A stretch of DNA of 35,601 bases from Herbaspirillum lusitanum P6-12 (GTDB lineage Bacteria; Pseudomonadota; Gammaproteobacteria; Burkholderiales; Burkholderiaceae_D): the NCBI RefSeq assembly GCF_000256565.1, contig NZ_AJHH01000111.1, forward strand, positions 1 to 35,601. The letters are read 5' to 3'. The stretch's first letter is position 1, and each line of letters starts with the position of its first letter. The position numbers and the translations under genes are program-made. The notes under the pieces were generated by a model. That model did not search any database and was not told the DNA's origin. It worked only from the letters and a program-made list of their open reading frames with translations. Below are positions 14,260 to 32,182 of the stretch, in pieces.

Positions 14260-14333
14260 TTTGTTTCTCCTCTATGTTTCAACTCGATTAAATTTTCTTT
14301 TTCCGGAGCGCCTTCCCGAGGCAGTCTGCCGGC

Positions 14334-16718
14334 CTATGTAGCGGTTTCCACTGCATTCTTTGCATGAATCATCCGGAACAGGCGTTCCTGCGTCACGGGT
14401 AATTCCTTGATCTCGATGCCCAGATGCATCAAGGCGTCGGAGACGGCATTGGCGATCGCGGCAGGCGCACCGATCGTCCCGCCTTCGCCCATGCCTCTGA
14501 ATCCGCCGATGGTGGCAGGCGTCGCCGTCTCGACGTGGACCGTCTGTATCGGAGGAATTTCCGGAGCGGTCGGGATGATGTAGTCAACCAGACTGGCGGT
14601 CAGGAACTGGCCGCGTTCGTCGTAGACGATCTCTTCGAACAAGGCTGCGCCAATCCCCTGCGCCACCGCACCATGCGACTGTCCGGCGACAATCAGCGGA
14701 TTGATGATCTTTCCGCAATCCTCGGCAACGACGTAGTTCTTGACGTGGACCATATAGGTTTCCGGATCAATCTCGACGACCGCCAAATGCGTGGAGGAGC
14801 TCGTCGTTCCCCAGACCGGATCGTAGGACCGAGTCTCTTCGAGCACTTCGATTGCTTCCTTCGGCAAACGTCCCATCTGGGAATACACCGTATCGGCGAT
14901 GTCGCGGATGCTGACGGTATTTCCCGAGTCCGCCGCTGTGATCACGCCTTCTTCAATACTCAGGTGCGCCACATGGCTGTTCAACATGTGCGCCGCAATG
15001 CGGAACAGCTTTTCCTTCATTGCCTGCGCCGCCAGAGTCCCTGCTCCACCCGCCAACACGGCGCTGCGGCTGGCATAGGTGCCGGTGCTGTGAGAGACCA
15101 CCGAGGTATCGCCGTGCACCACCGTAATGTCCTCGAATTTGGCACCGAGCTCATCGGCAACGACTTGCGCCAGTGTGGTTTCCAACCCCTGTCCGTGCGA
15201 CGCGATGCCAAAGAAGGCGGTAATCGATCCGCTCGGATCGATCTTGATCGTCGCAATCTCGGTGCCCGTGTTGATCGGCATGCCGGGAGAAGCGGAGATC
15301 CGGGAGCCGATCCCGGACAACTCTGCATAGGTGGAAATGCCGATGCCGACCCAGCGCCCCTGTGCGCGCTCCTCCAACTGCTTCTTGCGTAACTCGTCGT
15401 AGCCCAGGGCGGCACAGCCGTCTTGCAGCGACTCTATGAATCCCGACCTGTCCCACACAATGCCGGGCGCAGTCTTGTAGGGAAACTCTTCAGGCTTGAC
15501 CAGATTGCGCAGACGCATTTCCTTGGCGTCGATCCCCAGTTTGTGAGCGGCCATATCAACCAGGCGCTCCATCACGAAGGTGGACGCCGGCCGGCCGACG
15601 CCGCGATACGGGCCGGTGGGCGATTTGGAAGTGGCGACCGCGCGCACTTTGCCGTGGTAAACAGGGACCCGATAGGGACCCGGCATGAAACTGATGACTT
15701 GCACCGGCTCCAAGCCCGCCGTCCATGGATAGATAGAATAAGCCCCGACGTCTCCGATCACGTTTGCGCGCAAGCCGAGGATGTGCCCCTCGGCATCCAG
15801 CGCCAGTTCGGCATCGATCCGCTCGTCAAACGCCTGGCTGGTCGCGGACAGATCTTCCATCCGGTCGCCTGTCCATTTGATGGGCTTGCCCATATGCCGG
15901 GCCAGCGCGCACACCAGAATCTCTTCCGGATAAAGCGAACCCTTGCCGCCGAAGCTACCGCCGACATCCGGCGCGATCACCCGCAGACGATTGCCCGGGA
16001 TGGTCAGGATATCCACCAATGCATCACGAATGATGCCGGGGCTGCCGGTCGACGAATACAGCGTCAGCGATCGTTTTCCCTGATCGTATTCAGCCAGGTA
16101 GGTACGGTTCTCCATGGCCAGCGCCGTGCGGCGGTGGAATCGGAAGCGTGCCGCAACTTTCACCGGCGCCTCAGCCATCACGGCATCTATGTCGCCACGG
16201 CGGAACTCGCGTTGCACCAGGACATTGGTCCCGGCTTCTTCATGCAGCAACGGCGCTCCAGGCTCTGCTGCGACTTCCGGATCGACCACGTTGGGCAACA
16301 ATTCATAGTCGATATGAATGTGTTCCATCGCGTCTTCGGCGATGTAGCGGCTGTCGGCCACGACGGCGACGACCGCCTCTCCGACAAACCGCACCTTGCC
16401 GCGCGCCAGCGGGTAGATCGCGGTGGGATGGTAATGCGGCATCTTGGAAGTAGCGTAAATCGGCTTGACCATGCTTTCCAGATGTTCTGCGGTGAAGATC
16501 GCAACGACTCCCGGCACTTCCAGCGCCGCGCTGTAGTCGATCGACAGAATCTTCGCGTACGATTGATCGCTGCGGCGAAATGCCACGTGCAGCATGCCCG
16601 CAGGATGCTTGTCGTCCACGTAGCTGCCGTGGCCGCTCAGCAGGCGTGGGTCTTCCGTGCGCTTTACCCGCGTGCCGACGAGCTTGGCCTTGCCGGTTGG
16701 TTCAACGTCCTGTTTCAT
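14334..16718 (-). CDS. Molybdenum hydroxylase large subunit (xanthine dehydrogenase / CoxL family)
   Basis: Molybdopterin-cytosine-dinucleotide subunit of a hydroxylase that inserts water-derived OH into an electron-poor carbon. Of 794 residues, 20-130 form the a/b hammerhead domain and the rest the Mo-binding domains. Seen motifs: DVGGSFGGKG (251-260), PYRGVGR (370-376), SHGQGLETT (507-515) and the base glutamate E745 in GMGEGGTIG. The active-site loop is PYRGVGR and not the AYxCSFR of true aerobic CO dehydrogenase, so this is a form-II-like or other hydroxylase, not CO oxidation. It works with the FAD (18076-18990) and 2Fe-2S (17541-18083) subunits upstream; xdhC at 22603 supplies cofactor maturation. 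The substrate is probably a CoA ester or acid made by the operon's ligase. Confidence 0.92.
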   Translation of the reverse strand: MKQDVEPTGKAKLVGTRVKRTEDPRLLSGHGSYVDDKHPAGMLHVAFRRSDQSYAKILSIDYSAALEVPGVVAIFTAEHLESMVKPIYATSKMPHYHPTAIYPLARGKVRFVGEAVVAVVADSRYIAEDAMEHIHIDYELLPNVVDPEVAAEPGAPLLHEEAGTNVLVQREFRRGDIDAVMAEAPVKVAARFRFHRRTALAMENRTYLAEYDQGKRSLTLYSSTGSPGIIRDALVDILTIPGNRLRVIAPDVGGSFGGKGSLYPEEILVCALARHMGKPIKWTGDRMEDLSATSQAFDERIDAELALDAEGHILGLRANVIGDVGAYSIYPWTAGLEPVQVISFMPGPYRVPVYHGKVRAVATSKSPTGPYRGVGRPASTFVMERLVDMAAHKLGIDAKEMRLRNLVKPEEFPYKTAPGIVWDRSGFIESLQDGCAALGYDELRKKQLEERAQGRWVGIGISTYAELSGIGSRISASPGMPINTGTEIATIKIDPSGSITAFFGIASHGQGLETTLAQVVADELGAKFEDITVVHGDTSVVSHSTGTYASRSAVLAGGAGTLAAQAMKEKLFRIAAHMLNSHVAHLSIEEGVITAADSGNTVSIRDIADTVYSQMGRLPKEAIEVLEETRSYDPVWGTTSSSTHLAVVEIDPETYMVHVKNYVVAEDCGKIINPLIVAGQSHGAVAQGIGAALFEEIVYDERGQFLTASLVDYIIPTAPEIPPIQTVHVETATPATIGGFRGMGEGGTIGAPAAIANAVSDALMHLGIEIKELPVTQERLFRMIHAKNAVETAT

Positions 16719-16782
16719 TTTGGTATCCGCTCATGACCCGACTGCACATCTGGAATGTTCTTTTCTGGGAGTGACATGCGTT

Positions 16783-17544
16783 TCAATCGTAGAACTCCAC
16801 TCCTTTTTTCAAGGAATTCCACTGTGCGTCATCGTGGCCGAAGACCACCGTCGCACCGCCGCTCTCGATACGCCGGATGTCCTCCATCGAACGCGACGAC
16901 AATTCAGCGTTCCAGGTATTGCGTGGATTGATGTCGCCTTCCAGATTCGCGCGCAGCGCCACTGCATCCGACGCCAGCAAGAACGCGCCGGACTTGTCCA
17001 GGCCGACCATGGCGGCCGTCATGCCGGCGGTATGGCCCGGCACTGGAATCAGTACGATGCGGCCGTCGTTGAACAAATCATGTTCGCCTTCGATTGCCTT
17101 GATCGGCATGGGCTGCTTCCAGTCAACCGGCAGGAAACCAAATTTGACGGCGTCCTCCTGTCTTGCCGCTTCCAGCTCTCGGGCGTGGCAGACCACGGTC
17201 GCTTTCTTGAAGAATTCGTTGCAACCGCAGTGGTCGGAATGAAAATGGGAATTCACGACGACGTCGATATCGTCTGGAGTGAACCCGATCAGCTTCAATT
17301 GATCGACGACGTTTTCTTCCGGCCGGGAAATCGGCACCATGGCTTTCGCCATCGAACCCCAGCGGGCTTCAGGTTCGGTTGCGGTCGACGGATGGCATCC
17401 CGTATCGAACAACACGTTGCCCTGGGGGTGGCGCAGCAGAAAGCAGGACACCGGCAGTTCGATGGTTTCCTGACGATCCGCGTCGGGCAAATAGACACTC
17501 TTTTTCATGCGCAGGCGTCCACCGGACAGTACATGCATCTTCAT
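16783..17544 (-). CDS. Metallo-beta-lactamase-fold hydrolase, N-acyl-homoserine-lactonase family
   Basis: Two-metal hydrolase of 253 residues resembling AiiA/AttM lactonases along its length. All ligands are there: H100-x-H102-x-D104-H105, H171, D193 and H237; the ending VVFGHDDAQW matches the family's GHDxEQ motif. No signal peptide, so cytoplasmic. The start at 17544 has AAGGAG eight bases upstream, and its ATG overlaps the stop of the 2Fe-2S gene (ATGA). Because the gene sits between two subunit genes of a Mo hydroxylase, it more likely opens a lactone formed in the pathway than quenches quorum signals. That is inference; the family members do include genuine AHL lactonases. Confidence 0.88.
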   Translation of the reverse strand: MKMHVLSGGRLRMKKSVYLPDADRQETIELPVSCFLLRHPQGNVLFDTGCHPSTATEPEARWGSMAKAMVPISRPEENVVDQLKLIGFTPDDIDVVVNSHFHSDHCGCNEFFKKATVVCHARELEAARQEDAVKFGFLPVDWKQPMPIKAIEGEHDLFNDGRIVLIPVPGHTAGMTAAMVGLDKSGAFLLASDAVALRANLEGDINPRNTWNAELSSRSMEDIRRIESGGATVVFGHDDAQWNSLKKGVEFYD

Positions 17545-18083
17545 GGCGATATCTCCTTGGCGATTTGCTGGGGATGGGATTGGGGATGAGACGCGGCGGT
17601 CTCCGTAGCGACGGTCGCGCCACGCTTGACCATCTTCACGGCGTCGACGATGTGGACATAGCCGGTACAGCGACACAGATTGCCTGACAGGCCGTCGCGG
17701 ATTTCGGCGTCGCTTTCCAATGGGTATTTCTTGAGCATGTCGGTGCAGGTCATCAACATGCCCGGCGTGCAAAAGCCGCACTGGAGGCCATGGCAACTAT
17801 GGAAAGCCTGTTGCAGCGGGTTGAGCTGATCAACTGTGCCGAGACCTTCCACCGTCTCGACCACGCAGCCGTCGGCTTGCACGGCAAGCATCAGGCACGC
17901 CCGTATGCTGTCGCCGTCCACCATGATCGTGCAGGCGCCGCAAACGCCATGCTCGCAACCGACGTGGGTCCCGGTCAATCCGAGGGTGTGCCGCAAAAAA
18001 TCCGAGAGTAGCAGGCGCGGTTCAACGGCACGCTCATACGTCGTACCGTTGACCACCAGTTTGATATCCAGATTTTTACTCAT
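17541..18083 (-). CDS. Molybdenum hydroxylase small subunit, two 2Fe-2S clusters (CoxS family)
   Basis: Electron-transfer subunit of 180 residues. The plant-type cluster uses C43, C48, C51 and C63 (CEHGVCGAC); the second, helical-domain cluster uses C102, C105, C137 and C139 (CGFCTPG, CRCTGY). Both sets are complete. The C-terminal tail (about 158-180, His/Gln/Ser-rich) extends beyond the usual end. It overlaps the FAD-subunit gene by 8 bp and the hydrolase gene by 4 bp. AGGAGG precedes the start. Confidence 0.93.
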   Translation of the reverse strand: MSKNLDIKLVVNGTTYERAVEPRLLLSDFLRHTLGLTGTHVGCEHGVCGACTIMVDGDSIRACLMLAVQADGCVVETVEGLGTVDQLNPLQQAFHSCHGLQCGFCTPGMLMTCTDMLKKYPLESDAEIRDGLSGNLCRCTGYVHIVDAVKMVKRGATVATETAASHPQSHPQQIAKEISP

Positions 18084-18990
18084 GATGATGTCCTCCTGAC
18101 GAACTTGAACCAGACGCTACATCCTTGCCGTTGGCGCGCAGCCAGGCAGTCTGCAATGCGCGCTTTACCAGCACGCCAAGCAAGTGGCGCCGATAGTCTG
18201 CGGATGCATGCAAATCAGTTGCCGGCGCCACGGAGGCGCGTGCAACCTCAATCGCCTGATCCAGGATGCCCCCCTCGCATGCTTCGTCGTAAAGCACTGT
18301 TTCGACATCGAACAGGCGCAGGGGGGTATCCCCGACACCCATGACGCCAACCCGCGAATGCGTGACGCGACCATCTTCGACGGTCATGATGACGCCGACG
18401 GCAGCCAGGGCGAAGTCGCCCGCGCGACGTGCGACCTCTTCGAACGCCCAACCTGCGTTCGGCGGCAATGCGGGAAGATAGATTTCAGTGACAAGTTCAT
18501 CCTCCTCCACCGCAGACGTCAGCGCCCCCAGGAAAAAATCTTCCGCCGCGACAACCCGGCTTCCTCTCGGCGTGGCGATAGTGATTTCACTTTCCAGCAA
18601 TACCATCATCATCGGTAACTCTGCAGCCGGGTCGGCGTGGGTAATACTGCCGCCTATCGTTCCGCGGTTGCGAATGGCCAAATGCGCCACGTGCGCCATG
18701 GCGGCGTTCAACACCGGAAACAGGCGCTTGACTGCATCCGATGTTTCCAGCTTGTGATGGCGTGTCAACGAGCCGATCCGAAGGCCGCCATCCTCTTCCC
18801 TGAAACTACTGAGTTCGGCGATGCGGTTGATGTCGATCAGCACAGTCGGGTTAAGCAGACGGAAGTTGAGCATCGGCATCAAGCTCTGGCCGCCGGCAAT
18901 GATCTTGCCGCCACCTTCGGCCGCAACCAGGGCGTCAATCGCTTCCGGCACCGTCGCGGGCCGCAGGTAATCGAATTTTGGTGGTTTCAT
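18076..18990 (-). CDS. Molybdenum hydroxylase medium subunit, FAD-binding (CoxM family)
   Basis: The 304-residue FAD subunit passes electrons from the iron-sulfur clusters to an acceptor. FAD motifs are AGGQS (32-36) and TIGGS (111-115), in the order and spacing of the family. ATG 18990 gives the canonical start (MKPPKFDYLRP) with AGGAAAG upstream; the open frame to 19113 lies inside the previous gene. Only 4 bp separate it from the CoxG-crotonase gene, so they are co-translated. Confidence 0.92.
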   Translation of the reverse strand: MKPPKFDYLRPATVPEAIDALVAAEGGGKIIAGGQSLMPMLNFRLLNPTVLIDINRIAELSSFREEDGGLRIGSLTRHHKLETSDAVKRLFPVLNAAMAHVAHLAIRNRGTIGGSITHADPAAELPMMMVLLESEITIATPRGSRVVAAEDFFLGALTSAVEEDELVTEIYLPALPPNAGWAFEEVARRAGDFALAAVGVIMTVEDGRVTHSRVGVMGVGDTPLRLFDVETVLYDEACEGGILDQAIEVARASVAPATDLHASADYRRHLLGVLVKRALQTAWLRANGKDVASGSSSSGGHHHE

Positions 18991-18994
18991 CCCC

Positions 18995-20584
18995 TTACTT
19001 TCCTGCGAACACCGGACGTTTTTTCTGTACAAACGCCTGGCGCGCGTCGCGATAGTCGTCGCTGCCGACTGCTTGCCCGATGACGGCGTTGGCCGCGGCA
19101 TCCGTGAGTGCACCCATGCCCATGCTCAGGCCGTTGAGCAGCACCTTGGTGCCGCTGATGGTCAACGGTGCGTTGTCCGCCATGACGCCGGCAAACGCAC
19201 GCGCGGAGCGTGCCGGATCTGCGGATACCCGGTCCACGAAACCGATGTCGCGCCCTTCTTCGGCGCCGAATGTCTGGGCCGAATACAGAATGCGCTTCGC
19301 TTGCGCTACCCCGACCAGCGCCAGCAGGCGCTGTGTTCCGCGCACACCGTAGACGATGGACAGGCGCGCGGCAGGAATGCCGAAACGCGCATCCTGGTGA
19401 GCAAACCGGAAATCACAGGACATCGCAAGATGACAGGCGCCTCCCATGCAAAAGCCGTTGATCACTGCGATGGTCGGCTTCGGAGTGGCGGCGATGGCGT
19501 CACAACACTGGTCGACGGCAACTTCGTATTCGACGCCTTGCTCAACTGTCGCCCGCACAATGCCGAACTCCGTGATATCCGCACCGGCGCTGAAGTTGCC
19601 GCCGGCGCCGGTGAGGATAATCGCGCGCACCTGCGGATCACGCCCCAGCTCCGTGAAGATATGGCCTAAGTTGCGCCACATGGCCAAAGAAACCGCGTTG
19701 CGTTGATCGGGGCGATTCAATGTCACGACGGCTGCTTTATAGGTGGTCTTGGCGCCAGACTTTTTCGCCGGGACTTTTCCTGGCACCGGCGCCTGGTTGC
19801 CGAACCCGAACAGACGCGAGAGAACACCGCCGACGGGAGGCGCATCACTGCCGACTGCCGCCTGCACCGCTTCGATGTCGTCCTCTTTGCCGACATCCAC
19901 CAGCGAGACGGTAATGTATTGACTGGAGACCAGCGCAACCGTGCTGCTCGCGACTTCGGCAGACATCGTCGGAATTGCAGGATTTCCTTGTTTTGCTTCG
20001 GAAGCCGTCGGCGGCACCGGTTGCCCAGTAGCCGGAATGGAAGCGGAAGCAGTCGTAATGGAAGCGGTGTCGGCGGCGTTCACCGGGGCAGCGCCAACCG
20101 TCTCCGCAACATCACGCACGCTTGTGCCGGATGCGCCTTCATCGCCGGTGAAATGTCCATTGAAGCGTGCGAAGAACTGATCGGCCATCTTGCGTGCAGT
20201 CGCGTCAATCATGCGCGAACCGAGCTGGGCGATCTTTCCGCCGATATTGGCGGTGACGCCGTAGCGCAGCAAGGTCGTGGACGGCCCCTCTTCTTCCAGG
20301 TCGACCGTGATGTCCGCCTTGGCAAATCCAGCGACGCCGCCCGTGCCCTCGCCGGTGAGGCGATAGCTGATGGGAGCGTTGATCTCCGAGAGCGTCACTT
20401 TACCGGCGAACTTGGCGCGAATCGGTCCTACCTTGATCACCACCAATGCCTCAAACTCTGTGTCCGACAGCATGTCCAACGTCTCGCAGCCGGGGATGCA
20501 GGCCTTCAGAACATCCGGATTATTCAATGCCGCCCACACCGCTTCGCGCGATGCATCCAGGCGTATTTCGTCTTTCATTTCCAT
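18995..20584 (-). CDS. Fusion of a CoxG-type SRPBCC domain and an enoyl-CoA hydratase-like (crotonase) domain
   Basis: One 529-residue chain. Residues 1-148 match CoxG (carbon monoxide dehydrogenase subunit G, SRPBCC fold), known to accompany Mo hydroxylases. Residues 149-280 are a low-complexity Ala/Thr/Pro/Val linker. Residues 282-529 are a crotonase domain: oxyanion-hole segments NFSAGAD (330-336) and GFCMGGAC (377-384) are present. The two glutamates used by enoyl-CoA hydratase are not: position 385 is H (GGACHLA) and 405 is A (FGIPAARL). So it probably binds an acyl-CoA and stabilises an enolate, but does not hydrate by the standard route; isomerase, hydrolase or ring-opening activity are options. 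No frameshift or internal start site separates the halves. Confidence 0.9.
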   Translation of the reverse strand: MEMKDEIRLDASREAVWAALNNPDVLKACIPGCETLDMLSDTEFEALVVIKVGPIRAKFAGKVTLSEINAPISYRLTGEGTGGVAGFAKADITVDLEEEGPSTTLLRYGVTANIGGKIAQLGSRMIDATARKMADQFFARFNGHFTGDEGASGTSVRDVAETVGAAPVNAADTASITTASASIPATGQPVPPTASEAKQGNPAIPTMSAEVASSTVALVSSQYITVSLVDVGKEDDIEAVQAAVGSDAPPVGGVLSRLFGFGNQAPVPGKVPAKKSGAKTTYKAAVVTLNRPDQRNAVSLAMWRNLGHIFTELGRDPQVRAIILTGAGGNFSAGADITEFGIVRATVEQGVEYEVAVDQCCDAIAATPKPTIAVINGFCMGGACHLAMSCDFRFAHQDARFGIPAARLSIVYGVRGTQRLLALVGVAQAKRILYSAQTFGAEEGRDIGFVDRVSADPARSARAFAGVMADNAPLTISGTKVLLNGLSMGMGALTDAAANAVIGQAVGSDDYRDARQAFVQKKRPVFAGK

Positions 20585-20658
20585 GATCGGTGTCCCAGTT
20601 TCAATTATCTTTTTCAGTCGGGGCTAACGCCGCACTCACTGCCAACATATTCTCTATC

Positions 20659-21120
20659 TCAATCCGCCGCCGATGGGGCGTTGTCTTTGCGGAGCGCTTC
20701 AATTGCGGAGCGATAAGCCGATGGCAGAGGTCCCGGCCGGTTACTCGCACGATCAACATAGACGTGTACAAAATGCCCTTGCGCCGAGGCGTCCTGCTCA
20801 TCGTTGCGGAAGATGCCCAATTCGTACCTGACGCTGCTTGTGCCGACATGTGCAACGCGCACGCCGACGTGGATCGTGTCGGGAAATGCAACCGGACTAA
20901 AATAACGGCATTGCGTCTCCGCAACCAGCCCCACAACCTCGGATTGTTGAAGATTCAAAGCGCCTTGTTCGATGAGGTAGGCATTGACGGCCGTATCAAA
21001 ATACGAGTAATACACAACGTTGTTAACGTGACCGTAGACATCGTTGTCCATCCAGCGCGTGGCGATTTCATGGAAATGAACGAAGGCGGAGCGAGTTTCT
21101 GCCGGCGTACGCGTGGTCAT
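20659..21120 (-). CDS. Acyl-CoA thioesterase, 4-hydroxybenzoyl-CoA thioesterase/FadM-like hotdog family
   Basis: Hotdog-fold enzyme of 153 residues that hydrolyses an acyl-CoA to free acid and CoA. The family motif TRWMDNDVYGHVNNVVYY is near the N terminus, with D27 as the likely catalytic acid. GAGGAA precedes the start, and its ATG overlaps the stop of the Fe-alcohol dehydrogenase gene by 4 bp. In the operon it could release the product of the CoA-bound steps. Confidence 0.88.
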   Translation of the reverse strand: MTTRTPAETRSAFVHFHEIATRWMDNDVYGHVNNVVYYSYFDTAVNAYLIEQGALNLQQSEVVGLVAETQCRYFSPVAFPDTIHVGVRVAHVGTSSVRYELGIFRNDEQDASAQGHFVHVYVDRASNRPGPLPSAYRSAIEALRKDNAPSAAD

Positions 21121-22268
21121 AGCACTTCCTCATAAATGGCGAGCGCATGCTCGTACGCAATTTCGCGTGGGTTGTTGATCAACAGGCGCGTCTGTTTCAT
21201 TGCGTCTTCCGCGAGCATGGCCAAATCGTCTTTGGTAATGCCGACATCTCCAAGCCGCGTCTGCAACCCCAGTTCGACCGGCAGCGCGGCCAGACGCGTA
21301 ACCAGCAATTGAGACTTCTCTTCGGTCGTCCCTTTTACGCCAGGAATAATGATGTCTGCCAACTGCGCGTACTGTTCGCTGGCCGCGTGACTGTTGAAGC
21401 GCAGGACCGCCGGCAACACCAGCGAATTGGACAAGCCGTGCGGAACGTGGAAGCGCGCACCGACAGGGTAAGCAAGTGCATGGACACCGGCCACCGGGGC
21501 ATTCGCGAACGCCATCCCGGCGAGCATTGCGCCCAGCAACATGTTTTGTCGCGCCTCCCGGTTGCTGCCATTGCGGCAAACCTCATGGATGTTCTTGCTC
21601 AGCAATGACAAGGCTTCGCGCGCCAGGCAATCAGAGACAGGATTCTTGAGCCGCTTGCTGGTGAACGCTTCAATGGCGTGCACCATTGCGTCGATGCCAG
21701 TGGCTGCAGTGACATGTGCGGGAAGTCCCAGCGTGAGGTCCGCATCAAGAACCGCCCAATCAGGCACCAACACCGGCGAAACCACACCTTTCTTTTCACC
21801 TTCGCCGGTCGTTACGATCGAAATTGCCGTCACTTCAGATCCGGTGCCTGCTGTCGTCGGCGCCAGCAGCAGCGGGAGACGCGGCCCCTTGGCATTGCCG
21901 ACGCCATATATGTCGGCCAGCTTCTCCTGCCCCTTGGCCAGCAAGGCAACCAGCTTGGCCACATCCAGCGAGCTGCCGCCGCCAAGGCCAATCACGCCGT
22001 CCGCCTTGATAGCCGTTGCCGCAGCGACAGCATCCAACACCACAGCTTCGGCCGGATCAGCCTGAACGCCGTTATAGACCGCATAGGCGATGCCGGCTGT
22101 ACGCAGGCCGTCTTGAGCGGCCTTGAGCAAGCCCGCTTTTTCAACGCCTGCGTCAGTGACGATCAATACGGAGCGGCAGCCGAGGCCCTTGGCCAATTCG
22201 CCAAGCCTTGCCGAGGCGCCGGGGCCAACAAGACTTGATCGCGGTGATTGAAATTCGAAAGTTTGCAC
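21117..22268 (-). CDS. Iron-containing (group III) alcohol dehydrogenase
   Basis: NAD(P)-dependent metal alcohol dehydrogenase, 383 residues from the chosen start. Motifs: GLGGGSSLDVAK for the cofactor, PTTAGTGSEVT, and the metal ligands in TGIDAMVHAIEA and GVHALAYPVGARFHVPHG. The HALAYPVG and PTTAGTGSE forms separate it from maleylacetate reductases. The start is decided by a ribosome site: AAAGGAG lies five bases before GTG 22268, whereas ATG 22286 has its GGAG touching the start codon. It is the first gene of the ten-gene operon, about 150 bases downstream of the promoter at 22424-22452. Paired with the GabD-type enzyme at the operon end, it may interconvert a hydroxy acid and a semialdehyde. 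Confidence 0.88.
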   Translation of the reverse strand: MQTFEFQSPRSSLVGPGASARLGELAKGLGCRSVLIVTDAGVEKAGLLKAAQDGLRTAGIAYAVYNGVQADPAEAVVLDAVAAATAIKADGVIGLGGGSSLDVAKLVALLAKGQEKLADIYGVGNAKGPRLPLLLAPTTAGTGSEVTAISIVTTGEGEKKGVVSPVLVPDWAVLDADLTLGLPAHVTAATGIDAMVHAIEAFTSKRLKNPVSDCLAREALSLLSKNIHEVCRNGSNREARQNMLLGAMLAGMAFANAPVAGVHALAYPVGARFHVPHGLSNSLVLPAVLRFNSHAASEQYAQLADIIIPGVKGTTEEKSQLLVTRLAALPVELGLQTRLGDVGITKDDLAMLAEDAMKQTRLLINNPREIAYEHALAIYEEVL

Positions 22269-22380
22269 AGTTACTCCTTTACTCATCTCCGGTGAAGGAG
22301 CGATCGCTACTTCACATCTTGTTATGAAACTTGTCTGATTCAGGCCGAGCCATCCACTCTTCCTGTCGTCAAAAATTTGT

Positions 22381-22418
22381 TTGCAAGAAACATTTTTATT
22401 TCGTTTTTAACTTGCATA
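22381..22418 (-). promoter_or_regulatory. Operator-like box at the ten-gene operon promoter
   Basis: On the minus strand TTATGCAAGTTAA (22418-22406) is identical over 13 bases to the arm and centre of the palindrome at 3063-3087. It begins five bases past the -10 hexamer. A second, inverted half-site (CTTGCAA on this strand, 22387-22381) lies about 30 bp away, roughly three helical turns, instead of the close spacing at 3063. Confidence 0.6.
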
Positions 22419-22423
22419 AATAA

Positions 22424-22452
22424 ACTATACACATACAATTAAGACTTTGCAA
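22424..22452 (-). promoter_or_regulatory. Sigma-70 type promoter of the ten-gene operon
   Basis: Minus strand TTGCAA (22452-22447), a 17-bp spacer and TATAGT (22429-22424, 5 of 6 matches). Transcription would start near 22416, inside the TTATGCAAG box, about 148 bases before GTG 22268. Confidence 0.6.
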
Positions 22453-22602
22453 CAGCCGAAAATCTTAAATAAATAGTGATCTACAGAGGGAGATTGAGGT
22501 TGCAGGGCTCGCGATGGAAGTAATTTCATAAGTAGACTATTTCGACAGTTTGCAAAAACCAACGGCCGACCGCCTTTCGCCACTGGATAAATCGGGAGAT
22601 TC

Positions 22603-23631
22603 ATGGACAGCATTGATCTGGAAGTATTGAAAATGGCGATCGCCTGGTCGGAAGGCGGCGCCTATACCTTGCTCGTTACCGTCGTACGGACATGGGGCTC
22701 GGCGCCTCGCCCCGTCGGTTCGATGATGGTCATCCGGGGTGACGGCCATGTCCGCGGCTCCATATCAGGCGGATGCATCGAGGATGACCTGATCCATCAA
22801 ATCCGATCGGGAGAGTTTCAAGCAACGCATCATGTCGAAAGATCAGCGTGCACGTTGACATATGGCATTTCAGCAGACGAAGCGCACAGATTCGGATTGC
22901 CGTGCGGCGGAACGCTGCAGGTGGTTGTCGAGCAAGTGACTGAGGCATCACAGCTGCACGCACTGCTGCAGGCGGTGGAACAGCAAGGCCTGATGACGCG
23001 GCAACTCGATCTAAGGACGGGAGCCCTCACCCTGCAACGCGGGATGCCGGACGCGCAACTGCACTTTGATGGGGAATGCCTGACTACCGCGCATGGGCCT
23101 CGCTATCGCCTGATCATCGTCGGCGCTGCGCAAATGTCACGCTATGTGGCCACCATGGCGCTGATGCTCGATTACGAAGTCATTGTCTGCGACCCGCGGG
23201 AAGAATATCTGGACGAATGGGACATCGCCAGGGTCCAGCTCTCAAGGGAAATGCCGGATGATTTGTTATTGCGTCTGCAGCTTGATGCCCATAGCGCCGT
23301 GCTGACGCTTACTCACGATCCCAAGCTCGACGATATGGCCTTGCTTGAAGCACTGAAGTCCCCTGCTTTCTATGTCGGCGCCATCGGCTCGCGCAGCAAC
23401 AACAAGAAACGGCGTGAACGCCTGTCCTTATTCGATGTAAGCGACGCCGAAATTGCCCGCCTGCATGGGCCGGTTGGCATGTATATCGGCGCGCGCACGC
23501 CGCCGGAGATCGCCATCTCCATCCTGGCAGAAATGACCTGCATCAGGAACGGCACTGCCGTCCTGCAGACACATGCCATTCGCCCCAACTCACTTCTGGC
23601 TGCGGATGATGCGGCCTGCTCATTGCCCTGA
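22603..23631 (+). CDS. xdhC: XdhC/CoxI-family molybdenum cofactor maturation protein
   Basis: Cytoplasmic chaperone that binds and matures (sulfurates) the Mo cofactor and hands it to a hydroxylase; not a subunit of the final enzyme. In 342 residues the N-terminal XdhC/CoxI domain shows RPVGSMMVIRGDGHVRGSISGGCIEDD (landmark residues about 36-62), and the C-terminal Rossmann domain starts LIIVGAAQMSRY and ends in the motifs GAIGSR and GARTPPEIAISILAEM. The start has GGGAG six bases upstream. It is transcribed away from the Mo-hydroxylase operon and should serve it. It forms a two-gene unit with the PaaY-like gene 51 bp downstream. Confidence 0.9.
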   Translation: MDSIDLEVLKMAIAWSEGGAYTLLVTVVRTWGSAPRPVGSMMVIRGDGHVRGSISGGCIEDDLIHQIRSGEFQATHHVERSACTLTYGISADEAHRFGLPCGGTLQVVVEQVTEASQLHALLQAVEQQGLMTRQLDLRTGALTLQRGMPDAQLHFDGECLTTAHGPRYRLIIVGAAQMSRYVATMALMLDYEVIVCDPREEYLDEWDIARVQLSREMPDDLLLRLQLDAHSAVLTLTHDPKLDDMALLEALKSPAFYVGAIGSRSNNKKRRERLSLFDVSDAEIARLHGPVGMYIGARTPPEIAISILAEMTCIRNGTAVLQTHAIRPNSLLAADDAACSLP

Positions 23632-24623: not shown

Positions 24624-25484
24624 CTATTCATTGGCTGCTGGGCCGGTATAGGTATATCCCATCGAGGGAGGCATGGGGCCTTTGATGCGGCCGCCTTGTT
24701 TTTTTTGCTCCCAGGCATGCGCGAGGATGCCTACCGAGCGAGAGAGAATAAAGAGCCCTCGCGCCAACGCAGCATCAAAGCCCAGCTCGCCATAGATAAC
24801 TGCCGTTGCACCGTCGATGTTCATGGGAACCGGTTTGGAAGATCGCCCGGCCAGATGCGCTTCAATCAGTCGCCCCGCTTTGGCATGCAGCCCCTTGACC
24901 ACTCCCGCTGCTGCGGCCTCATCAACCATCGCAAGCAGTTTGACCGCTCGAGGATCAATCGGATGGAAACGATGTCCATAGCCAGGAACAATGCGTCCGT
25001 GCGCCTTTGCATGTGCGGCCATGACTTGTTCAAGTACGCTCTCCGGTTCACCGGCGCTTGCTTCGGCTGCATCCAGCAACTGATTGAATAGCAACAAGCA
25101 TTGTTCACCGGCGCCGCCATGAATGTCGTCCAGCATATTGATGGCGGACGACATCGCGCCATTCAATGGCAAGCCGCAAGTGACGCTCATGCGCGCGATG
25201 GCGATGGAAGGCGCCTGCGGTCCATGATCAACCGCCGACACCAGCGCAGCCTCCAGCAAGTGCAACTGGCCGGCGCTGGGAATATCGTCTCGTAACATAC
25301 GCCACACCATGTGGACATAGCCGACGTTGCCGATCATGTTCTCAATCGGCTCGCCTTTGATGCGGATGATGCCCGGCTGAATGTCAATGATGCTGGTGCT
25401 CCACCAGGCCTTGGCCTTGGCGACCAGGTCGGCGTTACGATCCGCCTCGGACGGTTGAATTGCATCGACTTGCTGCGTTGTCAT
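24624..25484 (-). CDS. Citrate synthase-like short enzyme, citryl-CoA lyase type
   Basis: 286 residues, much shorter than citrate synthase (about 430) and the size of citryl-CoA lyases of the citrate synthase superfamily. The catalytic triad is recognisable: H122 in HGGAGEQC, H171 in GYGHRFHPIDPRA and D224 in NIDGATAVIYGE. The likely reaction is cleavage (or formation) of a citryl-CoA-like compound to acetyl-CoA and a keto acid. ATG 25484 overlaps the stop of the CaiB gene (ATGA), so the transferase and lyase are made together: the first would make the CoA ester, the second split it. True substrate unknown. Confidence 0.87.
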   Translation of the reverse strand: MTTQQVDAIQPSEADRNADLVAKAKAWWSTSIIDIQPGIIRIKGEPIENMIGNVGYVHMVWRMLRDDIPSAGQLHLLEAALVSAVDHGPQAPSIAIARMSVTCGLPLNGAMSSAINMLDDIHGGAGEQCLLLFNQLLDAAEASAGEPESVLEQVMAAHAKAHGRIVPGYGHRFHPIDPRAVKLLAMVDEAAAAGVVKGLHAKAGRLIEAHLAGRSSKPVPMNIDGATAVIYGELGFDAALARGLFILSRSVGILAHAWEQKKQGGRIKGPMPPSMGYTYTGPAANE

Positions 25485-26692
25485 ACCACACCCTCTTCGC
25501 GCAGGTTGGAGATATTGGCGGGGGTGTAACCGGTCGCCAGCAGGATCTCGTCCGTATGCTGGCCCAGCCGTGGCGGGCCATGGCGGACGCCGGTTTGTTC
25601 GCCATCGATGGTGAAGCCGCTGCGCGTCAATGTAATTTCTTGCGTCTGATCGAGATCTTCCTTGTTGAACAACACTTTCATTAACAAACCGCGATGCTGG
25701 ACCTGATCCTGCGTCAGTGCATCCAGTACGCTGAGAACCTGCCCTGCGGGAACACCTGCTTGATTGAACTTGCGCTCCCATTCAGCCGCATCACCGCGAC
25801 GCAATTCTTCTTCAAGAATTTCACTCAGGGCCTTGCGGTTGGTTTTGCGTATTTCGCGCTCCGCAAAGCGCGGATCGGTTTTCAAATCCGATCTCCCAAG
25901 CAGATCGCACAGGATTTCGAATTGCTCCTGCTTGTTGGCGGCGATATTCAGCAGCCCGTCACCCGTACGGAAAGCGCCCGATGGACTGGCGGTAAAGTTG
26001 TCGTTACCCATGGGCACCGGACTGCGCCCGGCGATCAATTGATTGGAAACGATCCATCCCATGGTGACCATGACGGAGTCCAGCATGGACACATCGATGA
26101 AGCAGCCCTTGCCGGTGTTGTTTCGGCTGACCAGTGCGGAGGCAATGGCGAATGCAGCCGTCATCCCGCCAATGGTGTCGCACACAGGGTATCCAACGCG
26201 CAGAGGGGCGCTCTGCTCGTCTCCCGTGATGCTCATGACACCGGAGCGTCCCTGGATGATCTGATCGTAGGCAGGAGCATCGGCCAGCGGACCGGTCTGC
26301 CCGAAGCCGGAAATCGCGCAATAGACAAGACGAGGAAACTCATCTTTCAGGGCGTTATAGCCGACGCCAAGCCGATCCATTACGCCGGGGCGGAAATTTT
26401 CCAGGATGACGTCTGCGTTCCCGGCCAACCGGCGCAAAACTTCCTTGCCCTTGGCGCTCTTCAGATTGAGCGAAATGGAACGTTTTCCGGCGTTCTGCGC
26501 CAGAAATGAGGTTCCCATCTTCTCCTTGTTGAGATCTGAATCTGCGCCCAGCTGCCGCGCCAGATCTCCCGCTCCGGGTGTTTCAACCTTGATGACGTTG
26601 GCGCCCAGGAGCGCCATCTGATAACCCGTAAATGGCCCTGACAACACATTGGTCAGATCCAGAACCGTTACGCCTTCCAGTAGTTTGTTCAT
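25481..26692 (-). CDS. CaiB/BaiF-type (family III) CoA transferase
   Basis: 403 residues, full length for the family. It moves CoA from a donor such as succinyl-CoA to an acid through an enzyme-bound anhydride; the likely catalytic aspartate is D172 (VCDTIGG). Other landmarks are VLDLTNVLSGPF at the N terminus, ENFRPGVMDRLG (98-109) and RFAEREIRKTNR. AAGGAT is five bases before ATG 26692. The gene follows the IclR regulator after 132 bp on the same strand and overlaps the citryl-CoA-lyase-like gene. Confidence 0.9.
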   Translation of the reverse strand: MNKLLEGVTVLDLTNVLSGPFTGYQMALLGANVIKVETPGAGDLARQLGADSDLNKEKMGTSFLAQNAGKRSISLNLKSAKGKEVLRRLAGNADVILENFRPGVMDRLGVGYNALKDEFPRLVYCAISGFGQTGPLADAPAYDQIIQGRSGVMSITGDEQSAPLRVGYPVCDTIGGMTAAFAIASALVSRNNTGKGCFIDVSMLDSVMVTMGWIVSNQLIAGRSPVPMGNDNFTASPSGAFRTGDGLLNIAANKQEQFEILCDLLGRSDLKTDPRFAEREIRKTNRKALSEILEEELRRGDAAEWERKFNQAGVPAGQVLSVLDALTQDQVQHRGLLMKVLFNKEDLDQTQEITLTRSGFTIDGEQTGVRHGPPRLGQHTDEILLATGYTPANISNLREEGVV

Positions 26693-26824
26693 CGATATCC
26701 TTGACTTCTTTCAGCACGCGAACGTGCCGTCTCCTTAACGAATTGCCCGACAAGCTGACGCTGGCCGGGCCGATATGGCGGTGTTCCCACCTGTTCTTAC
26801 CGTTGTTGATTGTTGGTTGATGTA

Positions 26825-27583
26825 TTAGTCCTTGAGCAAACTCGCGTCCCCGAACAGGCTGGTCGTCAACACGCGCGCTGCTGCAATCAGATGCGGAATC
26901 ATCGCGGCAACGGCTTCGTCATTGAAGTGATGCAGCGGCCCCGACAAGCTCAGCGCCCCCTCCAGACGATTGTTGACACCGAATACCGGGCAAGCAATTG
27001 CTGCAGTTTCCGAATCGCGTTCGCCGCGCGTAACGCGAATGAATGGCTGCGGCATCTGTACCAGCTGGTCGCCCGACAGATTGTCGAAAGCGGTCAGGAC
27101 GTGGCCGCCGGCGCCCTTGTCAAGAGCGAGCAACTGGCCTGCCTGAACGTTGTCGCGAATCGAACGCGGCGAATCCACGCGATAGGCGCACAAGCGCATT
27201 TCGCCGGTACGGACATAGAACGAAGCACTGGAACTGGTAGTTTGTGCCAGCTCGCGCAGCACCGGCATGACTTTTTCTGCTGGGTGCAACGCCTTGCTCG
27301 CAATGCTTGCGAGCTTGATGGGCGCCGCACCTAATACATACGAGCCGGAAATCAGTCGATTGATATAGCCGTACGCCTCCAACGACTGCACCAGACGCAG
27401 GATGGTGCTCTTGTAGAGACCGGTTTTCTTGCTGATCACCGCCAGCGACAACACGGATTCGTCAGAAGTGAAGCAATCGAGAATCATCAATGCCCTGTTG
27501 ACGGCAGCGACCCCGACTTCATCGGCGGCCGGCTCACCCTCTTCATTTTCCAGATCGACGTCTTTTGTTGCTTTTTTAATCAC
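26825..27583 (-). CDS. IclR-family transcriptional regulator
   Basis: 252 residues from the chosen GTG. The N-terminal winged helix (about 27-85, SLAVISKKTGLYKSTILRLVQSL as landmark) is followed by the IclR effector domain to the end. The start is set by CGAGG eight bases before GTG 27583; GTG 27592 overlaps that site and is less likely. The first 25 residues form a charged tail. It is divergent from the aldehyde dehydrogenase gene at 27827; a palindrome at 27630-27646 between them is the probable binding site. It probably controls both the CaiB unit downstream and the plus-strand operon. Confidence 0.88.
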   Translation of the reverse strand: MIKKATKDVDLENEEGEPAADEVGVAAVNRALMILDCFTSDESVLSLAVISKKTGLYKSTILRLVQSLEAYGYINRLISGSYVLGAAPIKLASIASKALHPAEKVMPVLRELAQTTSSSASFYVRTGEMRLCAYRVDSPRSIRDNVQAGQLLALDKGAGGHVLTAFDNLSGDQLVQMPQPFIRVTRGERDSETAAIACPVFGVNNRLEGALSLSGPLHHFNDEAVAAMIPHLIAAARVLTTSLFGDASLLKD

Positions 27584-27629
27584 TTTTTGCACCTCGAATG
27601 CGTAGTAAATCGGCTTTTCTCACTTTTCC

Positions 27630-27646
27630 GTTCTGCCAAACAGAAC
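27630..27646. promoter_or_regulatory. Palindrome, probable IclR operator
   Basis: GTTCTG-CCAAA-CAGAAC, a perfect 6-bp inverted repeat, in the style of IclR-family sites. It ends two bases before the -35 of the plus-strand promoter (27649), an activator position, and lies about 45 bp upstream of the IclR start, where it could also give autoregulation. Confidence 0.65.
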
Positions 27647-27648
27647 TA

Positions 27649-27677
27649 TTGCGATCATTTTAGAACGCTGCTAATAT
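27649..27677 (+). promoter_or_regulatory. Probable promoter of the aldehyde dehydrogenase/flavoprotein/transporter operon
   Basis: TTGCGA (27649-27654), 17 bp, TAATAT (27672-27677), each 4 of 6 matches. Such imperfect boxes next to a regulator palindrome fit an activated promoter. The leader to ATG 27827 is about 140 bases. Confidence 0.45.
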
Positions 27678-27826
27678 TCCGTCAACTCTGGAGATGAATT
27701 GATTTTCCGGATCTGCAAATCAGCACTTACAACCCGTCTTGGCAGTATTTCAAGACCTAGCAACAGGAACAGGTTCACGTCCTTCCATCCTTCGGGCGAT
27801 AGGACGTGCAACGACAAGGACATCAA

Positions 27827-29305
27827 ATGAAGCGATATCAAATGTTGATCGGTGGCGTCTGGCAAGATTCGGCGTCGGGAGAATGGATAGATTCGATTGA
27901 GCCGTTTTCCGGTGACGTCATTGCGCAAGTCCCGCGCGGCAACGAAGCGGATGCTGCGCAAGCGGTCGATGCAGCGTACAAGGCGTACCGCTCCCCTGCG
28001 TGGTCTGAATTGACCGCGACGCAGCGCGGAGCTCTTCTTCGCAAGCTTGGTGATCTGATCGAGCGCGACGCGGTGCGTCTGGCGGATATCGAACGCAGCT
28101 GCAACGGCAAGAACATCACTGAAGTATCGGGCCAGGTTCGTAACGTCGCGCAATGGTTCTACTACTATGCGGGCCTCGCCGACAAAATCCACGGTTCGGT
28201 GGTGCCTATCAACAAACCGGGCGTTTTCAACTATGTGCGTTACGAGCCGCTCGGCGTCGTCGTCGCGATCACCCCGTGGAACTCGCCGCTCGCCTTGACC
28301 GCCTGGAAGATGGCGCCCGCGCTCGCCTGTGGCAATACCATCGTGGTCAAACCATCCGAATTCACCTCACCACCGCTGCTGGAACTGGCAGCTCTGGCCA
28401 GCGAGGCTGGCTTTCCACCGGGTGTAATCAACGTCGTCAGCGGCTATGGCAACGAGATTGGCGCAGCCTTGATCAATCATCCGCGTGTAGCGAAAATTGC
28501 TTTCACCGGTGGTGATATCGGTGGTCAGAAAGTTGCTGAAGCCGCGGCCAAGAACTTCAAGAAAATTACCCTGGAACTAGGTGGCAAGTCTGCAAACATC
28601 GTGTTCGCAGACGCCGATTTCGAACAGGCAATCAATGGCGCCATCGCAGGCGTCTTCGGTGCAGCCGGCCAAACGTGCATGGCCGGCTCGCGACTGCTGG
28701 TGGAACGATCGATCCACGACAAGTTTGTCGCCCGGCTAATTGAAGTCGCCGGTGCCGCACGCATCGGCAACCCCGCCGATAGCGAAACACAGGTTGGCCC
28801 CATCGCTACCCGCTCCCAGTACGAAAAAATTCTTGGCTACATCGAGATTGCCAAACAGGACGGCGCTACGTGCGTTCTGGGTGGCAACGCCCTCAGCGGT
28901 GCGCAGTACGGCCAGGGCCAATTCGTCGCGCCGACCATTTTCACCAACGTCAGGAACGACATGCGCATCGCCCGCGAAGAAGTCTTCGGGCCGATCCTGT
29001 CGGTGATTCCGTTTGACTCCGTTGAAGAAGCGCTGGAGATCGCCAACGATACCGACTTCGGTCTCGCCGCAGCAGTGTGGACGACCGATTTGCACAAGGC
29101 GATCTACTGCTCCGATCGCATCGAAGCAGGCACCGTGTGGGTGAATAACTACCGTGCGACCAGTTTCACCACGCCTTTCGGCGGTTACAAACGCAGCGGT
29201 GTTGGTCGTGAAGGCGGCCTGGAAGGTGCGCAGGAATACATGCAGGCCAAGAGCGTCTGGATTACGACGCAACCCAACAAGCAAAACGCATTCGTTTTAG
29301 GTTAA
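27827..29305 (+). CDS. Aldehyde dehydrogenase (NAD(P)-dependent), general ALDH superfamily
   Basis: 492 residues with all catalytic features: N152 in TPWNSPLALTAWK, E250 in ELGGKSANIVF and C284 in GQTCMAGSR. The GQTCMAGSR form differs from the GabD type in this window and resembles enzymes that oxidise aldehydes from heterocycle or amine breakdown. ATG 27827 has AAGGA eight bases upstream and gives the natural start; GTG 27806 is in frame but unsupported. First gene of the plus-strand operon, 45 bp before the flavoprotein gene. Substrate not known. Confidence 0.9.
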   Translation: MKRYQMLIGGVWQDSASGEWIDSIEPFSGDVIAQVPRGNEADAAQAVDAAYKAYRSPAWSELTATQRGALLRKLGDLIERDAVRLADIERSCNGKNITEVSGQVRNVAQWFYYYAGLADKIHGSVVPINKPGVFNYVRYEPLGVVVAITPWNSPLALTAWKMAPALACGNTIVVKPSEFTSPPLLELAALASEAGFPPGVINVVSGYGNEIGAALINHPRVAKIAFTGGDIGGQKVAEAAAKNFKKITLELGGKSANIVFADADFEQAINGAIAGVFGAAGQTCMAGSRLLVERSIHDKFVARLIEVAGAARIGNPADSETQVGPIATRSQYEKILGYIEIAKQDGATCVLGGNALSGAQYGQGQFVAPTIFTNVRNDMRIAREEVFGPILSVIPFDSVEEALEIANDTDFGLAAAVWTTDLHKAIYCSDRIEAGTVWVNNYRATSFTTPFGGYKRSGVGREGGLEGAQEYMQAKSVWITTQPNKQNAFVLG

Positions 29306-29350
29306 TGACACTGGTTTCCCAGTGCCAGGACATTTGAGGAGATGAGAAAA

Positions 29351-30814
29351 ATGAGTCAGCAGGAAAAGACAGTGGATGTACTGATCGTTGGTTGCGGCGT
29401 CGCCGGCCTTTCGGCCGCCGTCACCGCGTTGGAAGGCGGCTTGTCCGTGCTCAATCTGGAGCGCGCCACGCCAGATGATTTCGGTGGTGGTTCACGCTGG
29501 ACCGAAGCGTACATGCGCATGAAGAACGATTCCGAAGTCAGCGATGATTTCGAAGAACATTTCGCCAATAACGCAGGCCCGAATCTGGACCTGAACGTTT
29601 TACAAGCGGTCTCGTCCGGCGGCTACGAACACTGGCCTTCGTACGTCAAGGCACATCCATTCCCCGATCCGGAACTGATCGCCAAGTTCGCCGACTCGGT
29701 GCCCGGCACAATCAGCTGGCTGAAAGGATTTGGCTTGAAGTTCGAGCCGCAGCCGATTTATTTGCTGACACAAAACACGACCCGTATCGCAGCCCAGGGC
29801 GGCGGCCTGAAATTGATCGAAACCTTGCGTGAAAAGGCGCTCGGCCTCGGCGGCGAGATTGCCTATCGCACGACTGCCGTCGATTTGCTGCGCGACGACA
29901 GCGGTCGCGTCATCGGTGTCCGCGCAGTCGGCCCGGATGGCATACATAAGACCATACTGGCTCGCAACGTGGTGCTGGCCAGCGGCGGCTATCAGGGCAA
30001 TCAGGAAATGATGACGCATTACATTGGCCCCAAAGCGAAGAACATTCGTCCTGTTGCCACCGGCGGTTACTACAGCCGCGGCGAAGGTATCCGTATGGCG
30101 CTGGCTGCCGGTGCAGCGCCGGCTGGCGAATACGGTTCTTACCATGCAGAACCGGTCGATCCGCGCTCGTCCATGGCGGAAGCCGTCGTCTTCATTTATC
30201 CGTACGGCATTCTGGTCAATACCGAGGGCAAGCGCTTCATCGACGAAGCGCCGGGGACCGTCGACGCCCACTACGACAATATCTCGCGCAGCTTTGCAGA
30301 TCAGCCCAAAGGCCTGGTCTATGTCGTCTTCGACAGCAAAGTGGAAGACATTCCTCGCTGGAAGACCAGCATTCGGTCCGACATCCCGCCGCTGCAGGCA
30401 AACTCGTTGGCAGACCTCGCCAAGCAGATGAACGTATCCGCAGAAGCCCTTCAAGCTACTGTTGCGTCCTTCAATGCGGCCTGCCCGCCTCCTCCGAAGG
30501 AGTTCACGCCGTTCCAGATCGATCACTGCGGCACCAAAGAGATCTCGCCGCCGAAGTCGCATTGGTCGCGTTCGATCGACAAGGGCCCGTTCTATGCGTA
30601 TCCGATTATCTCGTCGAACTGCTTCACCTTCGGCGGTCTCAAGGTCAACACCGATGCGCAAGTATTGACTCAGGACGGTCATGTGATTCCAGGCCTGTAT
30701 GCGGCCGGCGAAACGGTCGGTATCTATCACCAGGTCTATACCGGGTCGACATCGGTTCTGCGCGGCCTGACGTTCGGACGCATTGCCGCTTCGCATATGG
30801 TTCGCACGAAGTAA
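29351..30814 (+). CDS. FAD-dependent oxidoreductase, fumarate reductase flavoprotein / TcuA (tricarballylate dehydrogenase)-like
   Basis: 487 residues. N-terminal dinucleotide motif VGCGVAGLSAA, the FAD_binding_2 middle (VVLASGGYQGNQEMM) and a C-terminal FAD segment GLYAAGETVGIYHQVY. Members oxidise or reduce C-C bonds next to carboxylates or ketones (fumarate reductase, tricarballylate dehydrogenase, ketosteroid dehydrogenases). The length and the GGGSRWTEAYMR segment are closest in style to TcuA. No signal peptide or haem motif is seen. ATG 29351 is chosen because GAGGAG lies nine bases upstream; ATG 29342 touches that site. It may create the double bond or keto group needed before CoA transfer and cleavage by the CaiB/lyase pair. 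Confidence 0.87.
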   Translation: MSQQEKTVDVLIVGCGVAGLSAAVTALEGGLSVLNLERATPDDFGGGSRWTEAYMRMKNDSEVSDDFEEHFANNAGPNLDLNVLQAVSSGGYEHWPSYVKAHPFPDPELIAKFADSVPGTISWLKGFGLKFEPQPIYLLTQNTTRIAAQGGGLKLIETLREKALGLGGEIAYRTTAVDLLRDDSGRVIGVRAVGPDGIHKTILARNVVLASGGYQGNQEMMTHYIGPKAKNIRPVATGGYYSRGEGIRMALAAGAAPAGEYGSYHAEPVDPRSSMAEAVVFIYPYGILVNTEGKRFIDEAPGTVDAHYDNISRSFADQPKGLVYVVFDSKVEDIPRWKTSIRSDIPPLQANSLADLAKQMNVSAEALQATVASFNAACPPPPKEFTPFQIDHCGTKEISPPKSHWSRSIDKGPFYAYPIISSNCFTFGGLKVNTDAQVLTQDGHVIPGLYAAGETVGIYHQVYTGSTSVLRGLTFGRIAASHMVRTK

Positions 30815-30858
30815 GCACTGAGTTTTAGATTGTCAGATTGTTGATTGAAGTCTGAAGC

Positions 30859-30883
30859 GGCGCTGCCCTGAACGGGCAGCGCC
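30859..30883 (+). other. Strong hairpin upstream of the binding-protein gene
   Basis: GGCGCTGCCC (30859-30868) and GGGCAGCGCC (30874-30883) form a perfect 10-bp stem with a 5-base loop. No T tract follows, so it is not a classical terminator. In the middle of an operon it may protect or define a processed binding-protein mRNA. Confidence 0.6.
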
Positions 30884-30920
30884 GGCATAAACCACCACTG
30901 AAAATGATAGGGAGACGGAA

Positions 30921-32159: not shown

Positions 32160-32182
32160 ACTTTTCCGATATATGGCAATAG

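Follow-up and report, generated by a model that had tools for sequence, protein, structure and literature searches.

The 35,601-nucleotide stretch of Herbaspirillum lusitanum P6-12 DNA analyzed here (contig NZ_AJHH01000111.1; "the window" in what follows) contains the genes of a LIV-type ABC importer, a catabolic operon of ten genes and the gene for HxlR2, a candidate regulator, together with five copies of a putative 18-bp operator that is the subject of this report. The periplasmic binding protein of the importer, SBP1 (Peripla_BP_6 by Pfam), is encoded at 1823-3031 on the minus strand, and livG-livF-livH-livM, with an operator upstream, lie at 3302-6688 on the plus strand, the livG start at 3302 having been read from the sequence after AGGAGG. 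The operon occupies 10363-22286 on the minus strand and was described from domain and family matches. Beginning at 22286 it encodes an iron-type alcohol dehydrogenase (FeADH), a thioesterase, a fusion of CoxG with enoyl-CoA hydratase (ECH), CoxM, CoxS, an AttM-like lactonase of the metallo-beta-lactamase type, CoxL, a short-chain dehydrogenase/reductase (SDR), an AMP-dependent CoA ligase and, ending at 10363, an aldehyde dehydrogenase (ALDH) of the succinate-semialdehyde dehydrogenase (SSADH) type. PDB searches with SBP1, the lactonase, CoxL, FeADH and the ligase returned enzyme classes only; the best solved match of CoxL is quinoline 2-oxidoreductase. Divergent to the operon is a gene for an xdhC-type maturation factor of the molybdenum (Mo) cofactor, at 22603-23631 on the plus strand. 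The HxlR2 gene (9169-10188) is on the same strand as the ten-gene run and lies behind the ALDH gene across a gap of 174 bp, in which no promoter or terminator was predicted.

A sequence-only reading of this DNA had noted that a 13-base box recurs upstream of the operon and at the importer, and had proposed that the two loci form one regulon. The box, TTATGCAAGTTAA, is real: exact minus-strand copies lie at 22407-22419 and 3075-3087, although the coordinates first given for it at the operon, 22406-22418, were one base off. As stated in that reading, its 13 bases recur in the perfect palindrome at 3063-3087, and at the operon it begins close to the -10, 4 bases past a predicted element (TTGCAA-N17-TATAGT, minus strand, 22452-22424, from a promoter scan). 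Exact copies of TTATGCAAG occur four times in the window, at 3063, 3079, 3249 and 22411. Judged from the sites described below, TTATGCAAG makes up the right half of an operator of 18 bp that is asymmetric, with the consensus TAGTYTANTTATGCAAGT in betaproteobacteria and AAGTCTAATAATGCAAGT in alphaproteobacteria; its halves, AGTYTA and TGCAAG, differ from each other. The ten-gene operon that begins with FeADH has operator O1 (TAGTTTATTTATGCAAGT, 22410-22427, minus strand), which matches the pattern exactly, contains the box and overlaps the -10 TATAGT. O2 (TAGTCTACTTATGAAATT, 22522-22539, minus strand) is situated between O1 and xdhC, which lies downstream of it, and has counterparts in relatives. 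The SBP1 promoter has two operators, one overlapping the -10 (TAATCTCGTTATGCAAGT, 3078-3095, minus strand) and a second that is inverted (TAGTTTTCTTATGCAAGT, 3055-3072, plus strand), and the fifth is at the livG-livM promoter (TAATCTAGTTATGCAAGC, 3241-3258, plus strand). The SBP1 promoter may be read as TTGACA-N17-TAATCT or as TTGACA-N15-TATAAT, and that of livG as TTGACA-N17-TAATCT or as TTGACA-N15-TTTAAT. In the 17-bp reading the left half of the operator is the -10 TAATCT at both of these promoters, and at FeADH it is the last four bases of TATAGT, so that the operator would cover the -10 and the probable start site. O1 and O2 are separated by 112 bp in the window, by 112-114 bp in five relatives (G472, G489, G422, G430 and G475) and by 149 bp in G455.

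The evidence that carries the operator is its conservation across two classes of bacteria. One matrix was built from 18 sites in the intergenic regions of alphaproteobacterial clusters, with no site from the window or from any betaproteobacterium (alpha-only), and another from 32 betaproteobacterial sites with the window excluded (beta-only). Both were seeded from a consensus, one per class, typed after sites had been seen, and the tests are for that reason partly circular; four loci (L120-L123, of which L120 is unannotated and was placed by tblastn) belonged to neither training set. With the alpha-only matrix the five window operators rank first among 71,168 oriented 18-mers, in the order livG, O1, O2, inverted SBP1 site and SBP1 site overlapping the -10, and with the beta-only matrix the same five places are on top, led by O1. 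The beta-only matrix finds cluster promoters within its top three matches in 9 of 9 intact alphaproteobacterial clusters, and the top match of the alpha-only matrix is a cluster promoter in all 11 of the 11 betaproteobacterial loci. The alphaproteobacterial sites are located at CoxM/CoxG, at LivG/SBP and upstream of HxlR2, and in Bradyrhizobium at the ECH and SBP1/HxlR2 promoters; in rhizobia and agrobacteria the operator upstream of HxlR2 is in the opposite orientation. Single 9-mers of AAGTCTAATAATGCAAGT were shared by 8 of 13 intergenic regions from five alphaproteobacterial clusters, with a maximum of 3 in 100 shuffles, a test that ignores the kinship of the rhizobia, to which the cross-class matrices provide an answer. 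Unsupervised expectation maximization on the alphaproteobacterial intergenic DNA gave best-scoring models that were AT-rich, with the operator model last of the six listed; we then switched to exhaustive k-mer counting, and the window scan with an AT-rich model was not used. The importer (1823-6688) and the ten-gene operon share one operator type, and the link is kept across alpha- and betaproteobacteria. In this the proposal stands, although the regulon was drawn too small: a further site precedes xdhC, and the operon has the HxlR2 gene at its end.

A 13-mer common to the two intergenic regions appeared in 25 of 5000 dinucleotide shuffles of 22287-22602. Taken alone the 13-mer is weak: the window holds 5 copies with up to 3 mismatches where 4.33 are expected, and the whole genome has 23 places with up to 2 mismatches against 47 for a reversed-pattern control. 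As a global motif it was rejected for want of genome-wide enrichment. The significance of the box comes from its conservation. Lack of enrichment at promoters had been named beforehand as a sign against the proposed link; the genome-wide counts do show it, yet a local regulator is not refuted thereby. The operator itself behaves locally. A 16-bp pattern, ARTYTNNTWATGCAAG, written after the window sites had been seen and therefore partly circular, has 4 exact places in the 4.9-Mb genome, all within the window (68 with up to 2 mismatches, against 48 for the control), which indicates a local regulon.

The sequence-only reading named no regulator; co-occurrence points from the operator to HxlR2 as the candidate. 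In 392 genomes of the family, a 17-bp pattern, ARTYTANTWATGCAAGY, is present at 17 places in 12 genomes, and its reversed control gives 6 matches. Thirteen of these places are in 8 of the 10 HxlR2-positive genomes (those with a match at E up to 1e-60), all inside the cluster, and the other 4 are in 4 of the 382 remaining genomes, with no cluster in the fetched stretches of up to 20 kb. The association with HxlR2 is highly significant (Fisher, 1.7e-12). A query independent of HxlR2, the lactonase, is found in 9 of the 392 genomes, all of them HxlR2-positive; in the tenth, G478, the contig starts inside the ligase gene and no lactonase was found elsewhere in the draft. Orthologues of SBP1 with at least 72% identity are likewise confined to 9 genomes, all HxlR2-positive, the other relatives listed at E up to 1e-150 having at most 64% identity.

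The HxlR2 search gave seven loci, among them Noviherbaspirillum, a Massilia metagenome-assembled genome, Lacisediminimonas and Pseudorhodoferax, and SBP1 and/or catabolic genes adjoin HxlR2 in six of them, with none in L031, whose contig start truncates HxlR2. Genomes of the family (G472, G489, G422, G455 and G405) were added to this set. Outside the betaproteobacteria the cluster stands beside HxlR2 homologues on plasmids of Aminobacter, Sinorhizobium, Agrobacterium and Rhizobium, with a smaller version on a Bradyrhizobium plasmid. As the proposed tie between import and catabolism would have it, the SBP1 gene and catabolic genes form one co-directional run in several relatives; in Agrobacterium and Rhizobium SBP1, ECH, SDR, ligase, FeADH, thioesterase, SSADH, adenylate kinase and xdhC are co-directional. 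Operators follow the genes where operons are split. With REARRANGEMENTS as the test, the separate livGFHM and coxG/ALDH units of Lacisediminimonas (G430) each have an operator (13640 and 19504), and its SBP1 gene, which comes after HxlR2 in the direction of FeADH, is without one. Sites are not present at all related loci: SBP1 comes after HxlR2 in the same direction in L029 and L033, and TTATGCAAG with up to one mismatch was found neither before SBP1 of L029 nor in L033 or L031. Thus the same operator is found at the transcription units of the pathway in the window and in its relatives, and co-regulation of importer and catabolism is well supported by these comparisons.

HxlR2 has 339 amino acids and matches Pfam HxlR (PF01638, E 3.7e-41) in two stretches, with PDB sequence matches to HxlR, YodB and YybR. 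Its halves are 45% identical over 132 amino acids. Two winged helix-turn-helix (wHTH) modules are thus contained in a single chain, rather than the one domain per chain of a homodimer, and by sequence HxlR2 is a tandem variant of the HxlR family, not a classical single-domain member. Each wHTH module is followed by an H-x2-C...C-x2-C motif, and these cysteine motifs possibly bind zinc. Searches of a collection of open-access papers gave no description of a tandem HxlR2 or of its gene cluster. HxlR/DUF24 proteins are described as binding DNA as dimers (PMC7835342), and the same authors made an engineered single-chain HxlR-cpYFP-HxlR (PMC7835342), which shows that joining two subunits in one chain is workable.

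It is very probable that one double-headed regulator turns on the importer and the matching degradation pathway together. More specifically, we consider it likely that HxlR2, a single-chain HxlR dimer, represses the importer, the Mo-hydroxylase operon and xdhC until a compound of the pathway appears. HxlR2 would act on the 18-mer as a single-chain pseudo-dimer, in which each of the two non-identical wHTH modules reads one of the non-identical halves, AGTYTA and TGCAAG. Without inducer it would block RNA polymerase from sites over the -10 and probable start (SBP1, livGFHM and FeADH) and from one before xdhC. A pathway compound, probably the substrate or an early intermediate, would release it, and release would turn on the importer, which may carry the pathway substrate, the Mo-hydroxylase pathway, the cofactor factor and, if its gene is co-transcribed with the operon, HxlR2 itself. 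The position of the HxlR2 gene behind the operon and the upstream operator of the alphaproteobacterial copies make autoregulation likely.

Several observations weigh against this account. Six rhizobial and agrobacterial clusters have an operator-like 18-mer (L059 24481, L060 24493, L062 24545, L121 24494, L122 24502 and L123 24514, all on the minus strand) within or at the edge of the small interval that separates the 3' ends of the convergent genes coxG and livM, where no promoter is expected. In L121 no other site scores higher. Blocking of a promoter does not, in its simple form, account for such sites. Within the window, O2 is without a good -35 for xdhC, and a matrix from all relatives scores one site inside a gene at 18 (25674-25691) and a weaker one at 14 (22314-22331). 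Among the HxlR2-positive genomes, G405 and G478 have looser sites only and no exact 17-mer, and two operator-like sites (21.8 and 22.1) lie within 20 kb in G529, a genome that lacks HxlR2. Most clusters were found via HxlR2, which biases the set towards it, with the lactonase query as a check, and in the betaproteobacterial loci the search for regulators covered only homologues of proteins encoded in the window. The AlphaFold model of HxlR2, from 7 sequences, has a predicted local distance difference test (pLDDT) score of 61.8 and a predicted template modeling (pTM) score of 0.37, too weak for the domain arrangement.

The sign of control could also be opposite, since the archetype HxlR is an activator. 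HxlR2 would then sit over the -10 and, with inducer, aid polymerase where -35 and -10 are awkwardly spaced, in the manner of Bacillus HxlR. The B. subtilis protein acts as a positive regulator (PMC7835342), and the SBP1 and LivG promoters are readable with a perfect -35 and a 15-bp spacer, so that TTGACA-N15-TATAAT at SBP1 might be a poor-spacer promoter needing help. The alternative TTGACA-N17-TAATCT is, however, present at both. The operator spans the -10 to about the start site, a placement typical of repressors, and we regard activation as an unlikely alternative to repression by HxlR2. These explanations are not mutually exclusive, and our degrees of belief in them need not sum to one.

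Less probable still, and in our judgment quite doubtful, is that a regulator encoded elsewhere binds the operator, with HxlR2 a passenger of the cluster. Binding by HxlR2 is proposed from co-occurrence and conservation, an IclR-type gene is present in the window (26825-27592), and the search for other regulators had the limit just given. But of regulators only HxlR2 was seen to accompany the cluster in both classes, the lactonase was not found without it in the 392 genomes, operator counts in genomes without HxlR2 match the background (4 places, as compared with 6 for the control) and the alphaproteobacterial HxlR2 genes have sites upstream.

The geometry of the sequence-only reading amounts to a dimer on TTATGCAAG half-sites whose spacing varies, from 7 bp at the importer to some 30 bp at the operon, where looping would come in. 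In its favor are the perfect palindrome at 3063-3087 and the extra sites 112-181 bp off in some relatives, but we think it highly improbable. The palindrome TTATGCAAG-N7-CTTGCATAA, taken there as the recognition unit, is instead two complete 18-bp operators head to head (3055-3072 and 3078-3095), each with its own AGTTT/AATCT half, and single 18-mers recur at the FeADH, LivG and CoxM promoters. The full palindrome is not present at 22410, and with up to one mismatch it occurs at one place in one of 399 genomes of the order, the window's own copy; the genome-wide search proposed for it returns only that copy, so the palindrome does not mark the regulated promoters. Two further places with 3 mismatches are both on contig C490 and have the same GC-rich sequence. 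The partner half-site TTTGCAAG, claimed at 22381-22388 on the plus strand, was rejected: it scores 3.0, nothing in 22341-22405 scores higher with the operator matrix, as compared with 22-28 for the five operators, and in none of the seven relatives checked (G472, G489, G422, G430, G455, G475 and L030) do the 60 bp downstream of the corresponding operator contain TGCAAG or CTTGCA. That the 13-mer repeat is a chance match of two AT-rich promoter regions can hardly be entertained, for although there is no genome-wide excess (23 against 47) and the mismatch searches of the window are at expectation, matrices from either class recover the same promoters, and we take chance to be refuted.

None of 33 other genomes of the same genus that were searched has an HxlR2 match, and the cluster was probably acquired horizontally. 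A decayed remnant is present on p42d, a symbiotic plasmid of Rhizobium etli CFN 42 (L119, 15877-18083), with partial coxM, coxS and coxL around a lactonase of intact length; L119 gave no HxlR2 match by tblastn and no operator, nothing scoring above 6.6 with the beta-only matrix. Of 56 plasmid records with a close lactonase, 42 are from Rhizobium, and most of those with a stated source come from Phaseolus. Tentatively, and at somewhat less than even odds in our estimation, a natural single-chain pseudo-heterodimer of HxlR type evolved with its asymmetric operator in such a way that either module reads its own half, and the pair moves as the control unit of a mobile catabolic island (importer, Mo-hydroxylase, lactonase) shared by Burkholderiales and rhizobial and agrobacterial plasmids, the site at convergent 3' ends then being an auxiliary one for looping or as a roadblock. 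This proposal includes a substrate that is possibly a plant-derived heterocycle or lactone.

Other features of the neighborhood may be noted. CoxG and ECH are in one open reading frame (18995-20584, minus strand); single full-length tblastn matches suggest the same fusion in G472, G489 and G422, and the two are separate in G430 and Aminobacter. An adenylate kinase gene (8450-9157, plus strand) accompanies the cluster in the window and also in several relatives, and its product may recycle the AMP that the CoA ligase releases. Another LIV-type importer, separate from the first, adjoins at 24624-35215, with CaiB, the IclR regulator, an ALDH and an FAD enzyme; a matrix scan of this region found no operator apart from the intragenic match at 25674-25691.

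HxlR2 belongs, by Pfam and PDB sequence matches, to the same wHTH family as HxlR, YodB and YybR/HypR (MarR-DUF24) of B. subtilis, and differs from the HxlR/DUF24 family in having two modules fused in one chain, ribbon-like cysteine motifs and an asymmetric conserved site. The combination of a lactonase, an iron-type alcohol dehydrogenase and a succinate-semialdehyde dehydrogenase resembles blcABC/attKLM of Agrobacterium, and the best NCBIfam match of the lactonase, below the cut-off, is AttM. That gamma-butyrolactone operon is under an IclR-type regulator and is not known to include a Mo-hydroxylase, CoA ligase, ECH or thioesterase. The logic of Mo-hydroxylase, CoA ligase and thioesterase is that of furoate degradation by hmfABCDE, to which lactonase, FeADH, SSADH, SDR and ECH are added here; this likeness is one of pathway logic. 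Overall we see a local regulon for catabolism, with a fused protein of the HxlR type as its candidate regulator. For a Mo-hydroxylase pathway that betaproteobacteria share with plasmids of agrobacteria and legume symbionts, the analysis supplies the complete list of genes, a concrete operator and a candidate for the regulator. The link to the importer narrows the search for the substrate, as the ligand of SBP1 should be the pathway substrate and should also, directly or via an intermediate, act as inducer. In addition, an HxlR fusion that recognizes an asymmetric site would be a compact model for how a homodimeric regulator turns into a single-chain heterodimer.
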